A stretch of DNA of 64,000 nt. It comes from Ferrimonas sp. YFM. Lineage in GTDB: Bacteria > Pseudomonadota > Gammaproteobacteria > Enterobacterales > Shewanellaceae. A program made the position numbers and the translations under genes. Where the stretch lies: NCBI RefSeq assembly GCF_030296015.1, contig NZ_AP027368.1, positions 4,264,839-4,328,838 of the forward strand, given 5' to 3'. Under the pieces are notes generated by a model. It worked only from the letters and a program-made list of their open reading frames with translations. It was not told where the DNA came from and ran no database searches. Shown piece by piece: positions 24,294 through 52,053 of this stretch (within the stretch, counting starts at the first letter, position 1; the number at the start of each line of letters is the position of its first letter).

Positions 24294-24538
24294 GGGGCAA
24301 ACCTCAGTTAAGGCCGTATCGCTATCCGATCCAAAGCCGGACACCATACGTCGTTAGTGATAAATTTAAGGCGCGTAATAGTACACGATGCAATCAACCC
24401 TCGCAAGCACAGAAACGCTCTGCATAGTAAGATTATGCCGCCTCTGATAGGGTATCCACCTGGCCATCAAATTTCGCTGGCCGGCGGGACTTCAGCCCGA
24501 TAAAGACTATCCAATTCAGTAACCCAGGATCCTCATAC

Positions 24539-48515: not shown

Positions 48516-49055
48516 ATGAAAAAGACAACTTTGCTGGCCATGATGCTGGCCCCGGCTTTGATGAGCCCCTACGCTATGGCAAACTCCGGCTGTGGTTTCG
48601 AAGAGGGCCAGAAGGGCCCCTTCGCCACCTGCACCCAAGAGGAGAAACAGGAGGTAATTTTGACCGGTGAACTGGCCATGGCCGACATTATTGACGCGAT
48701 CCCCGGCTACGGAGACAACTTCGACAGCTACGCACCCCAGTCCAACTGGGTTGACGCCCTGAAGGCGGTAGACACCCCCACGGAGATCGTGGTGATCATC
48801 GGCACCTGGTGCCCCGACTGCCATCGCGAGACCCCACGCTTCGCCAAACTGCTGGAGCAGGTCGGCAACGACAAGCTGTCCGTGCGCTACATCGGCGTCG
48901 ATCGCCAGAAATCCGATCCGCAGAACCTGGCGGCCGCCTATGAGTTCAAGCGCATCCCCACCTTTATGGTGATCCAGGATGGCAAGGAGATCGGCCGCAT
49001 CGTCGAGACTCCCAAGCACTCCCTGGAGCAGGATCTGGCCGAGATCCTCAAATAA
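48516..49055 (+). CDS. Periplasmic thioredoxin-like protein
   Basis: 179 residues: signal peptide (KKTTLLAMMLAPALMSPYAMA), then a thioredoxin fold with the redox pair Cys99-Cys102 in GTWCPDCHRETPRF, the cis-Pro in RIPTFMVIQDGKEIGRIVE, and a C-terminal helix. Two further cysteines at 26 and 39 precede the domain. Likely a periplasmic thiol-disulfide or redox protein; the partner is unknown. Stands alone after hemB. Confidence 0.87.
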   Translation: MKKTTLLAMMLAPALMSPYAMANSGCGFEEGQKGPFATCTQEEKQEVILTGELAMADIIDAIPGYGDNFDSYAPQSNWVDALKAVDTPTEIVVIIGTWCPDCHRETPRFAKLLEQVGNDKLSVRYIGVDRQKSDPQNLAAAYEFKRIPTFMVIQDGKEIGRIVETPKHSLEQDLAEILK

Positions 49056-49063
49056 TCCCCTCA

Positions 49064-49092
49064 GGCCGAATCAGCCCAACTGGTTCGGCCTC
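49064..49092 (+). terminator. Possible terminator of the thioredoxin-like gene
   Basis: AGGCCGAA (49064-49071) and TTCGGCCT (49085-49092) with a 13-base loop; followed by only two T, so tentative. Confidence 0.4.
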
Positions 49093-49117
49093 TTAGCGCC
49101 ACTTCAAAACATTGATT

Positions 49118-49138
49118 TGTAAAGACAATATTTACAAG
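49118..49138. promoter_or_regulatory. Perfect 7-7-7 dyad upstream of the riboswitch
   Basis: TTGTAAA, seven bases, TTTACAA. Perfect dyad about 110 bases before the aptamer, in the likely promoter. The binding protein is unknown. Confidence 0.5.
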
Positions 49139-49248
49139 CGCCCATCACTTCATCTCAGTACCAAGTACACCCACTGACACCCTCACTTCACCATGCTCTA
49201 ATGGTCCCGACCCAAGGATAAACCGAGTCCTGGGTTCAGTTTTCGTTA

Positions 49249-49329
49249 CGCTGACAATGGCAAACCAACCGTGAGGTTGGGACGCAAAGCTTCCGGTCTC
49301 GCCCAAGCGAGATAGCGGGGTTTCCAGCG
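49249..49329 (+). promoter_or_regulatory. Cyclic-di-GMP class I (GEMM-I) riboswitch
   Basis: Aptamer with all hallmarks: P1 CGCTG/CAGCG (49249-49253 with 49325-49329), the conserved ACAATGGCAAACC strand, P2 CCAACC-GTGA-GGTTGG with a GNRA tetraloop (49265-49280), the conserved GGGACGCAAAGC joining strand, P3 GTCTCGC-CCAA-GCGAGA (49297-49312) and the closing TAGCGGGGTTTCC strand. Downstream, GAGTCC pairs with GGACTC (49332-49353). A further ACCAT/ATGGT stem (49387-49401) places the GGAG ribosome-binding site in its loop, so translation control is more likely than termination, as no T-run is present. Confidence 0.95.
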
Positions 49330-49407
49330 GTGAGTCCCTCTTTGGGAGGACTCCACACAGCCAAAGACAGCGTTTGGATAGGATCAACCATTGGAGATGG
49401 TAGATTT

Positions 49408-52053
49408 ATGCAGTTCAAGCGCCACCTTATCGCCCTGTCCCTGACAGCGGCTCTGACCCAACTCACCGCCTGTGGCGGCGGCTCCTCTGACTCCGCCCCG
49501 GCACCTCAACCCGAACCCCAGCCAGGCCAAAGCCTTGAAGGCGCGACCGCCGATGGTTATCTGGTCAATGCCCAGGTATGTCTGGATCTCAACCGCAACG
49601 GCGAATGCGACGCCGATGAGCCCAGCACCCTGACCCAGGCCGGAGGCCAGTACAGTTTCGAAAACCTCGATGCCACCCTGGATCTCAGCCAGGTGCAGAT
49701 GCTGGTGAAGGTGATTGCCGGCCAGACCGAGGATGAAGACAACCCGGGCGTAGTGCTGACCCAGGGCTACACCATGACGGCACCGGCCGGTGTGGTGGAG
49801 TTTGTCAGCCCGCTGACCACCCTGCTCGCCTCTGAGATGGACAGGGCCGGTGTGGATCAGGAAACCGCGGCAGCGGCCCTGGAACAAACCCTGGGCATTC
49901 TGGGCTCGGATCTGAGCCTGGTCGAGGACTACATCGTCGGCAAGCAGCAACAGGCCAACGGCGACGGCTACAAGCGGCTGCACCGAGTGGCCCAGGTGGT
50001 CGCCCGGGTGACCGCCAAGGCGAAACATGCCGTAGAGCAGAACGGCGGCACCGGCGGCGACGCCGAAGACAATGAAGTGGCCGACGCCATCGCCGAAACC
50101 CTGACCGAAAACCTGGAGCGTCTGGTGAACCGGGTGGATGAGGCGGAAGCCAATGGCCAGGAGCCCGATGCCGACACCATCGCCGACGAAGTCGCCGGCG
50201 AGCTGCCTCTTGACCCGGAAGACGTGCAGGACAGAGTCGAGCGTAAGCGCGAGCGCGGCGACCTCGAAGAGGCCAGTCTGCTGACCCTGCTTGAGTCTGA
50301 AGGGGGCATGTTCGAGCTGGATGGCCACTCCGAGGTGTTCTTTGACGCCAGCACCAACCAGTGCATCAAAGAGCGCGAGCTGGGCTACCAGCAGATTCAG
50401 AAGGTGGAATCCCTGATCACCTTCAACCGCTTCCGTTATGACGGCCCTGACGCCGGTTTTGTCGAGATTACCGAAGAGGAAGATCGCGACATGCTGGTGT
50501 GGAAAGGGGAAGCCTGGGCGGAGATGAACGACCAGGTGGAGGTGGTCTCCCTGGAGGAGGATGGCTCAGTCATCGTCAGCTCCGATATGGATGGCCGCCA
50601 GCAGGTCTGGGCTCAGCAGCTGGATCTGTCTGATTTGAAACTTAAGCGCTACGCCAAGGGCGAACACGAGTGGAAATCCCTGTTCAGTGGCGACCACCTC
50701 TTCCCTGAGGGTGCCAGCGGTTTCCAGATGACCTTCAAGCAGCTGGAGAGCCGCGCCATGCTGCCCTACCGGGCAGAGTGTGACGCCTCGGTTCGGTGGT
50801 GCAACCAGGTGGTTCTGCCAACGGGTCCGGTTCAGACTCTGGCCGAGCTGATGAATGACGCCGACACCGAAGAGCCCAAACTGGTCTACATAGGTGGTGA
50901 CGATGACACCAGCCTGGCCGTTGCCCTTCAGGGCTCCATTGAACAGGAGCAGGGTCAGGTACAACTCTATGTCATAGAGCACGATGAGTGCGATGACAAC
51001 GGCTGTGGCGCTCCCGAGCTGAAAGAGAACGCCGACGCCAGCTGGAACAAAACCCCCATGGGCCTGGTGCTGAACCTGCCTGAGTGGGGCCACTCCTTTA
51101 CCCATCGTCGCCGGGCGCAGCCTCTTCTGACCGAATACGAAGGGGCGGTACGTCACGGCTTTGTCCTTGGCGAAGGCCTGACCCGCAGCGATCAGTGGGG
51201 CTTCAACCAGGTGGCCATGGACGCCTTCCTGGCCAATCTGGGGACTCCGGAGCTGCGTGAGGTAGAAGATGCCGAGGAGTGTGGCTTCGAACCAGACGAC
51301 GGCCAGGAGCCCGATGACGGTGTGGAGCCCGGCGAAGAGCCGACCACCCCGGATCTGGTGGCCGATGAAACCGCCATGGCCGCCCTGGTGGGCAAACGTT
51401 ATCTGGCTCAGGACGGCGACTTTGAGGCGCTGATCCACTTCAGCCGCGAAGGACAGGTACAGGTCTGGCTGGAGGAGCTGGAGGGCGACCTCATGGAAAC
51501 CGAGATCCTGCTTGGTTCATGGCTGGTTGACGCCAACCATCAGTTGCAAATGCTGTTTGGTTCCGATGATCAGGTACTGATTCAGCTTCCTGCGGAAGGT
51601 CTGGGCAGCGACGTGATGAAAGTGTCTGAAGAGGAGGAGGGCCAGGTACGCGAATACAGCATGAGCCTGGTGCGCCCCTTCACCCTTGAGGGACTGGCAG
51701 CGCCACTGGACCTGAGACTCTCCGCCATGGGTCAGGAGAGCTGCGTACTGGATCTGCACCTCAATGGCCTGCCCACCGATCAGGAAGGTTTTGGCTGGGT
51801 CGATCAGGCCCAATGTCCTGAAGAGGATCCCAATGCGCCGACGGCCTTTGAGATGGTCTGGTACCTGACCGACTCCGGCCTGGAGCTGAGCCCCATTGAT
51901 CCCAATGGTGAAGCCTCACCCCAGCGCCATCACCTCTACTGGTTTGGCAGTGAAGGCACGGAACAGGTGCTGACCCGAAGCTTTGCCATCGCCGAGGATG
52001 GCACCGCCGAGCTGGAATCTCTGGACAGTTTCCAGTTCAGCCTGATTCGTTAA
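49408..52053 (+). CDS. c-di-GMP riboswitch-controlled lipoprotein of unknown function
   Basis: 881 residues from the ATG at 49408 with GGAG 11 bases upstream; a frame open from 49330 lies over the riboswitch. Lipoprotein signal with Cys22 (TQLTAC), then a GGGSSDSAPAP linker. One SdrD/CarboxypepD-like stalk module with a calcium-type loop follows (VCLDLNRNGECDADEPSTLTQ, AGGQYSFENLD), then TTLLASEMDR-type helices, a long acidic stretch and a large C-terminal domain I cannot name, rich in Glu/Asp with paired Cys. Probably on the outer membrane surface. Control by c-di-GMP points to attachment or biofilm matrix. Confidence 0.87.
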   Translation: MQFKRHLIALSLTAALTQLTACGGGSSDSAPAPQPEPQPGQSLEGATADGYLVNAQVCLDLNRNGECDADEPSTLTQAGGQYSFENLDATLDLSQVQMLVKVIAGQTEDEDNPGVVLTQGYTMTAPAGVVEFVSPLTTLLASEMDRAGVDQETAAAALEQTLGILGSDLSLVEDYIVGKQQQANGDGYKRLHRVAQVVARVTAKAKHAVEQNGGTGGDAEDNEVADAIAETLTENLERLVNRVDEAEANGQEPDADTIADEVAGELPLDPEDVQDRVERKRERGDLEEASLLTLLESEGGMFELDGHSEVFFDASTNQCIKERELGYQQIQKVESLITFNRFRYDGPDAGFVEITEEEDRDMLVWKGEAWAEMNDQVEVVSLEEDGSVIVSSDMDGRQQVWAQQLDLSDLKLKRYAKGEHEWKSLFSGDHLFPEGASGFQMTFKQLESRAMLPYRAECDASVRWCNQVVLPTGPVQTLAELMNDADTEEPKLVYIGGDDDTSLAVALQGSIEQEQGQVQLYVIEHDECDDNGCGAPELKENADASWNKTPMGLVLNLPEWGHSFTHRRRAQPLLTEYEGAVRHGFVLGEGLTRSDQWGFNQVAMDAFLANLGTPELREVEDAEECGFEPDDGQEPDDGVEPGEEPTTPDLVADETAMAALVGKRYLAQDGDFEALIHFSREGQVQVWLEELEGDLMETEILLGSWLVDANHQLQMLFGSDDQVLIQLPAEGLGSDVMKVSEEEEGQVREYSMSLVRPFTLEGLAAPLDLRLSAMGQESCVLDLHLNGLPTDQEGFGWVDQAQCPEEDPNAPTAFEMVWYLTDSGLELSPIDPNGEASPQRHHLYWFGSEGTEQVLTRSFAIAEDGTAELESLDSFQFSLIR

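Follow-up and report, generated by a model that had tools for sequence, protein, structure and literature searches.

A candidate c-di-GMP-I riboswitch of Ferrimonas in which one leader strand may pair with either the aptamer or the first codons of a lipoprotein gene

The locus described here, from Ferrimonas sp. YFM, raises the question of how an aptamer for cyclic di-GMP (c-di-GMP), of the c-di-GMP-I class, might control the gene behind it, which encodes an 881-residue lipoprotein. It lies in the 64,000-nucleotide stretch that we analysed (the window; positions 4,264,839 to 4,328,838 of contig NZ_AP027368.1). The best candidate for the switch is a single leader strand, CAGCGUUUGGA, whose partner is either the 5′ strand of the aptamer's P1 helix or codons 3-5 of the lipoprotein gene. 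We give about an even chance to the overall reading that this is a riboswitch that, on binding c-di-GMP, represses translation.

A covariance-model search scores the aptamer (Rfam RF01051) at 68.7 bits against a gathering cut-off of 35 bits, with an E-value of 2.4e-11 over the 64-kb window. P1 has 5 bp and P2 has 6 bp with a GUGA (GNRA-type) loop; two pairs of P2 show two-sided changes in an alignment of five orthologues. The equivalents of the ligand-pocket nucleotides G20, A47 and C92, read off alignments by a numbering that we take to map correctly onto this aptamer, are canonical and not those of the UAU or GGC variants, and the initial annotation's description of the aptamer as nearly textbook is borne out. 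Some orthologues score best with the UAU or GGC variant models, with pocket nucleotides still canonical; an altered ligand was ruled out for them on the basis of these nucleotides. The genome holds 45 GGDEF matches, 44 of them above cut-off, so c-di-GMP should be present in the cell, where the aptamer presumably binds it. There is no second c-di-GMP-I match at gathering score within the window; two further aptamers of the class lie elsewhere in the genome. The features of the leader and gene, all on the forward strand and in window coordinates, are:

49248-49261 (+), P1 5′ strand plus core, ACGCUGACAAUGGC, which pairs within P1 or in the anti-P1 duplex
49249-49328 (+), c-di-GMP-I aptamer (RF01051), with P1 formed by 49249-49253 and 49325-49329, and P2 by 49265-49280
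49360-49373 (+), anti-P1 strand, GCCAAAGACAGCGU, with GCCA opposite 49258-49261 and CAGCGU opposite 49248-49253
49370-49378 (+), clamp 5′ strand, GCGUUUGGA, overlapping the anti-P1 strand
49414-49422 (+), clamp 3′ strand, codons 3-5 (UUC AAG CGC), UUCAAGCGC, forming 9 pairs with the clamp 5′ strand
49384-49404 (+), Shine-Dalgarno (SD) hairpin, UCAACCAU-UGGAG-AUGGUAGA, with one A.A mismatch and the SD in its loop, predicted in both states
49330-49356 (+), linker hairpin, whose sequence differs between species
49174-49202 (+), candidate promoter read from the sequence, CTGACA (49174-49179), a 17-nt spacer and TCTAAT (49197-49202)
49408-52053 (+), gene for the 881-residue lipoprotein, with lipobox LTAC and Cys22

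The strand with two possible partners, which we call the hinge, is GCCAAAGACAGCGUUUGGA (49360-49378). In the anti-P1 pairing its GCCA pairs with UGGC and its CAGCGU with ACGCUG of the aptamer. Because the anti-P1 strand and the clamp 5′ strand overlap, sharing GCG, the two pairings are mutually exclusive. Both are conserved by computation: across the five orthologues, 96% of alignment cells are paired for anti-P1 and 100% for the clamp. The anti-P1 strands are nearly invariant and therefore show no covariation, and three clamp pairs carry one-sided consistent changes (UG/UA, UA/UG and GU/AU).

The proposed mechanism is as follows. Without ligand, the P1 5′ strand and core would pair with the downstream anti-P1 strand, which would dismantle the aptamer and occupy the GCG of the clamp 5′ strand; the start region would then keep only the small SD hairpin and be easier to open. 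With c-di-GMP, P1 would be held and the clamp 5′ strand would be free to pair with codons 3-5 as they emerge, giving a nine-pair stem closed around the SD and the AUG, and low translation.

Forcing each state on RNA to +43 separates the two. Opening the region -18..+12 costs 14.8, 13.3, 14.3, 15.2 and 15.6 kcal/mol with P1 and P2 forced (orthologues from G000, G005, G009, G010 and G006, respectively), and 10.2, 10.6, 10.2, 6.9 and 9.1 kcal/mol with anti-P1 forced; an OFF state is therefore predicted when c-di-GMP holds P1. With the leader ending before the AUG, the anti-P1 state lies within 0.2 kcal/mol of the free ensemble in 5/5 species, and the P1 state is 2.8-8.0 kcal/mol less stable. An alternative pairing that breaks P1 is predicted in ligand-free RNA of all five, in folds of the leader alone and in nascent transcripts to +12. 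For nascent RNA ending anywhere from -28 to +12 the probability of anti-P1 is 0.99-1.00 in three species, 0.44-0.91 in G010 and 0.75-0.94 in G006; once the transcript extends to +21 and includes codons 3-5, the probability of the clamp is 0.29-1.00, and at later ends 0.21-1.00. The sign of the switch, control at initiation and a choice made during transcription are what we infer for this leader.

A similar arrangement recurs in the genus. All 39 c-di-GMP-I aptamers in 14 Ferrimonas genomes were inspected and 31 entered the clamp test, those left out having unclear starts (L072, L116, L117) or leaders of 15-18 nt (two in L077, plus L078, L080 and L115). Thirteen other leaders precede two gene groups, one encoding large exported proteins (LG) and one Asp-Pro-rich lipoproteins (DP). 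All 13 have UCUGCC in the leader and UCGGCA in the coding sequence, at codons 2-4 or 3-5, and in each a leader stretch matches the aptamer 5′ strand over 7-10 Watson-Crick pairs; in the 11 leaders tested this match is equalled by 0-48 of 2000 shuffles. The clamp UGCCGA/UCGGCA occurs in 10 of the 13, the next pair being U-A in five, A-U in one (L064) and unpaired in four. Its Arg codon is CGG in 13/13, whereas beyond the clamp these genes use CGG for 52 of 373 Arg codons. The coding UCGGCA gives Arg-His or Arg-Gln throughout; in the window's family the residues are Lys/Arg-Arg-His. None of 270 other gene starts equals the clamps of 9, 9 and 8 Watson-Crick pairs (L074, L083 and L064), and clamps of 7 pairs are equalled by 1, 3 and 6 of them.

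Three groups supply 17 leaders, and in 16 of these the start region costs 4.0-9.2 kcal/mol more to open in the bound than in the anti-P1 state; the difference, bound minus anti-P1, is -1.2 in the remaining one, L075, and -0.7 to 2.3 kcal/mol in seven other leaders. In that run L073 and L082 ended at an upstream ATG, the gene-start clamp test having used the second ATG, and the anti-P1 strand was placed by hand for the window's group. No strong clamp was found in L075, L118 and L119 (whose genes are LG-like by eye), or in the lytic polysaccharide monooxygenase (LPMO), ParA-like and other leaders; the duplex energies of L120 and L068-L069 are equalled by only 28-30 of the 270 gene starts. Comparison of ten proteins shows that LG and DP share a region ~48-54% identical over ~330-390 residues, and that none of the ten resembles the window's protein (best E 1.7). 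By these comparisons, the predicted hinge layout is one that occurs with two unrelated gene families.

A number of results weigh against this reading. In unforced RNA to +43 without ligand, the middle pairs of the clamp have probabilities of 0.62, 0.99-1.00, 0.88-0.89, 1.00 and 1.00, a majority in 5/5, and anti-P1 has 0.40, 0.001, 0.12, 0.001 and 0.005; at +45 the ligand-free clamp stands at 0.32, 0.88, 0.78, 1.00 and 1.00. Opening the unforced start region at +43 costs 10.8, 14.9, 11.5, 12.1 and 13.3 kcal/mol, and in G005 the free ensemble (14.9) is more closed than the P1 state (13.3). At equilibrium the effect of the ligand would be smaller than the forced states suggest. Because the clamp dominates at equilibrium without ligand, the outcome must, if the model is right, be largely set during transcription. 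With a dissociation constant of 1 nM, the value quoted for the Vc2 riboswitch in an excerpt of PMC12564702, rough P1 fractions at 1 uM ligand are 0.96, 0.05, 1.00, 0.99 and 1.00, with G005 as the exception.

The individual pairings belong to the same side of the balance. Among the five orthologues the clamp shows no two-sided covariation and only two sequence variants. Its duplex energy is equalled by 11, 11, 11, 19 and 8 of 270 other gene starts; its longest Watson-Crick run is 4, the rest leaning on G-U pairs, and is equalled by 181-200 of the 270; and native closure of the start region is equalled by 12, 48, 12, 10 and 4 of 150 gene starts. For the window's own leader, 11/270 do as well by energy, 12/150 by closure and 181/270 by Watson-Crick pairs. 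RNAduplex tests of anti-P1 across leaders had a mixed outcome: against shuffles the duplex energy gives p values of 0.038, 0.022 and 0.006 (G000, G005 and G009) and does not stand out in G010 and G006 (0.377 and 0.449), and an automatic search for the longest Watson-Crick match chose a different match. In the 13 other leaders, clamps of 6 and 5 Watson-Crick pairs are equalled by 10-14 and 53-65 of 270 gene starts and native closure by 6-68 of 150; these 13 genes count as one origin, because their two groups are related. The window's leader taken singly gives the clamp moderate support, and repression on ligand binding is argued chiefly from conservation and from the genus-wide pattern. A wider proposal, which we put forward tentatively and with rather more doubt than confidence, is that in Ferrimonas c-di-GMP-I leaders one hinge pairs with either the P1 5′ strand or codons 2-5, and that this holds for the genes of two unrelated kinds of exported protein; the expression platform would reach into the coding sequence and constrain the N-terminal residues, and the decision would fall in the short interval after the hinge is transcribed and before the codons are.

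The initial annotation had assigned the switching to the small SD hairpin, with GGAG held in its stem. The GGAG (49393-49396) does lie 11 bases 5′ of the ATG at 49408, as claimed, but within the hairpin ACCAU/AUGGU (49387-49391 with 49397-49401) it occupies the loop, not the stem. The stem is invariant in 5/5 orthologues, and the SD is GGAG or AGGG. Opening -16..-10 costs 3.6 kcal/mol in both forced states in three species, and 2.4 (P1) against 2.4-2.5 (anti-P1) in two; for -14..-5 the states differ by 0.7-1.6 kcal/mol. Because the hairpin is predicted in both states and its opening cost hardly depends on them, it is probably a constitutive element rather than the switch, and the larger change is that of the longer clamp reaching codons 3-5.

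A hairpin that hardly differs between the two states would also suit the alternative that survives best, one we nevertheless think unlikely: that the aptamer works by another route, such as Rho-dependent termination, RNA stability or processing, and that the start-region structures are constitutive. The equilibrium majority of the ligand-free clamp at +43 agrees with it, as does an effect of Vc2 on the stability of an upstream RNA, reported in the title of a cited paper. Against it, the pairing of codons 3-5 with the leader strand survives three changes, leader-to-codon clamps recur in the 13 other leaders, and no intrinsic terminator was found in 49040-49500. The absence of a terminator had been noted in the initial annotation, and its view that control is probably at translation counts as supported.

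Less likely still is a translational ON switch, in which the SD would be hidden without ligand, either by AAUGG of the aptamer core pairing with CCAUU in the SD hairpin or by a different helix, and would be freed by c-di-GMP. CAAUGG/CCAUUG is, at 6 nt, the longest Watson-Crick match between the aptamer 5′ strand and the leader (5 nt in two orthologues), and the Vc1 riboswitch before gbpA is described in an excerpt of PMC4744006 as activated by c-di-GMP. However, a match of equal length arises in 240-1425 of 2000 shuffles, and the forced core:SD helix lies above the free ensemble in all five species, by 9.1-11.6 kcal/mol to +43 and by 2.4-10.9 kcal/mol in the leader alone. Moreover, it eases the opening of the start region (5.1-9.7 versus 13.3-15.6). 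The core:SD-strand pairing itself was ruled out as energetically unfavourable. That the aptamer is a relic, or binds without regulating the lipoprotein gene, is very improbable: the 12 next best homologues, from another genus, have no aptamer at gathering score in the ~1.5 kb searched upstream (0/12), but in Ferrimonas the aptamer core and the downstream strands are kept in 5/5 species while the linker hairpin and upstream DNA vary.

The 881-residue reading frame is open upstream as far as a GTG at 49330, and ATG 49408 is the likely start because the stretch upstream of it is in no conserved frame; the GTG was ruled out on the same ground. Across the five orthologues the ATG lies 78, 82, 79, 82 and 80 nt from the P1 3′ strand. 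Few shuffled sequences fold as well as the leader (3/200; z -2.9). A strict promoter scan of the region listed no promoter. The candidate promoter is present in three of the five orthologues (CTGACA, CTGACA and GTGACA in G000, G005 and G009) and would place the transcript start upstream of the aptamer. CsrA/RsmA proteins recognise a motif that includes GGA; such a site in the SD loop was ruled out, the loop being UGGAG in three species and UAGGG, with GGA lost, in two.

Other c-di-GMP-I leaders of the genus have features of their own. In two leaders of GbpA-like LPMO genes (L067 and L120), TGCCTTT, complementary to AAAGGCA of the aptamer core, lies 5′ of GAGGCA near the start; the L067 protein matches LPMO_10 and GbpA_2 in Pfam. 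A ParA-like ATPase gene, an unusual cytoplasmic target, stands behind the aptamer in four Ferrimonas genomes (L068, L069, L070 and L049), that of L069 matching AAA_31 and CbiA. The G008 aptamers (L077, L078, L080 and L115) are c-di-GMP-I-like and lie only 15-18 nt before the start codon; most have swapped core pairs (GCCAAAC, GACGGAAAG, CACGGGTC and AGCCGGG), and for both L077 aptamers the GGC variant family gives the highest score even though they have A at the A47 position. This set is perhaps a coherent variant with direct SD occlusion. Two tandem c-di-GMP-I aptamers, ~165 bases apart, occur at G112:C38:6019-6351.

For the lipoprotein itself no Pfam family was found, which agrees with its earlier labelling as uncharacterised. 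LTAC-GG occupies residues 19-24, Cys22 does not vary in alignments of 7 and of 16 sequences, and there is no Asp at +2. Lipoproteins with a lipobox signal peptide and no Asp at +2 are as a rule sorted to the outer membrane, where this one is probably located. The initial annotation's "stalk-like" proved too loose: the structure model has an N-terminal module of beta and helical parts (~41-285), a large central beta domain (~286-626), a low-confidence linker (627-645) and two small beta domains (651-756 and 759-881). The central domain, modelled with confidence, has no clear PDB match. The N-terminal module (window 49525-50190; ADGYL..A.VCLD.N.N..CD..EP ... SPLTT) recurs in other-genus lipoproteins (L009-L030), often as the sole matched part; the window's copy has no Pfam match, and 3 of 20 members have a weak GEVED match.

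Some match to the protein occurs in 83 of 152 family genomes, many to the N-terminal part only, and full-length orthologues occur in five of 14 genomes of the genus; three orthologous contigs are from F. futtsuensis, F. sediminicola and F. sediminum. A c-di-GMP-I-clan aptamer precedes the gene in all five, and the neighbours, a thioredoxin-like gene upstream and a CoA-disulfide reductase gene downstream, are kept in the other four species as well. In another genus, the 12 homologues (L009-L020) show 31-35% identity over ~residues 5-640; given aptamers in 5/5 and 0/12, respectively, aptamer control looks like a Ferrimonas trait. c-di-GMP usually favours the attached state, so the prediction that the gene is OFF when c-di-GMP is high speaks against the simple role in attachment suggested earlier, which found no support. 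Elsewhere in the window, 24301-24350 (-) matches the L31-Gammaproteobacteria ribosomal protein leader with 64.2 bits.

If the proposed mechanism is true, it supplies a specific model, open to testing, of how c-di-GMP-I riboswitches can control translation. It would also be an example of exported proteins whose N-terminal residues are shaped by RNA structure, and would mean that a large uncharacterised lipoprotein is expressed at low c-di-GMP. A literature search returned no paper combining "c-di-GMP-I riboswitch" and "Ferrimonas".

Among known systems, the add switch of V. vulnificus involves its start region. For Vc2, which precedes tfoY in Vibrio cholerae, the primary paper is reportedly that of Inuzuka in 2018. 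The GEMM-Ib riboswitch of pgcA in Geobacter is described in PMC6456294 as a sensor of cyclic GMP-AMP (cGAMP) that is thought to switch on via an anti-terminator. PgcA has hemes, whereas the Ferrimonas lipoprotein has no CXXCH motif, and no PDB chain of PgcA is among its listed sequence matches. Vc1, before V. cholerae gbpA, resembles the present locus, as far as an excerpt of PMC4744006 describes it, in placing a c-di-GMP-I aptamer before an exported protein; neither a terminator nor an anti-SD is evident there, and the authors call the mechanism unclear. Vc1 differs in that it activates, and the Ferrimonas leaders of GbpA-like LPMO genes have no clear codon clamp. A close parallel in mechanism is Vc2, described in excerpts of PMC7371385 and PMC9262584 as a translational OFF switch in which P1 is the switching helix and the ribosome-binding site is masked far from the aptamer; part of a 2025 review (PMC12564702) terms it, to the contrary, an ON switch. 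On the former description, the two share a c-di-GMP-I aptamer and would share translational OFF control, switching through P1 and distant masking of the ribosome-binding site, the Ferrimonas side being predicted by computation. They differ in their targets, tfoY encoding a regulator and the Ferrimonas gene a lipoprotein, and in that the strand freed in Ferrimonas is predicted to pair with codons 3-5.
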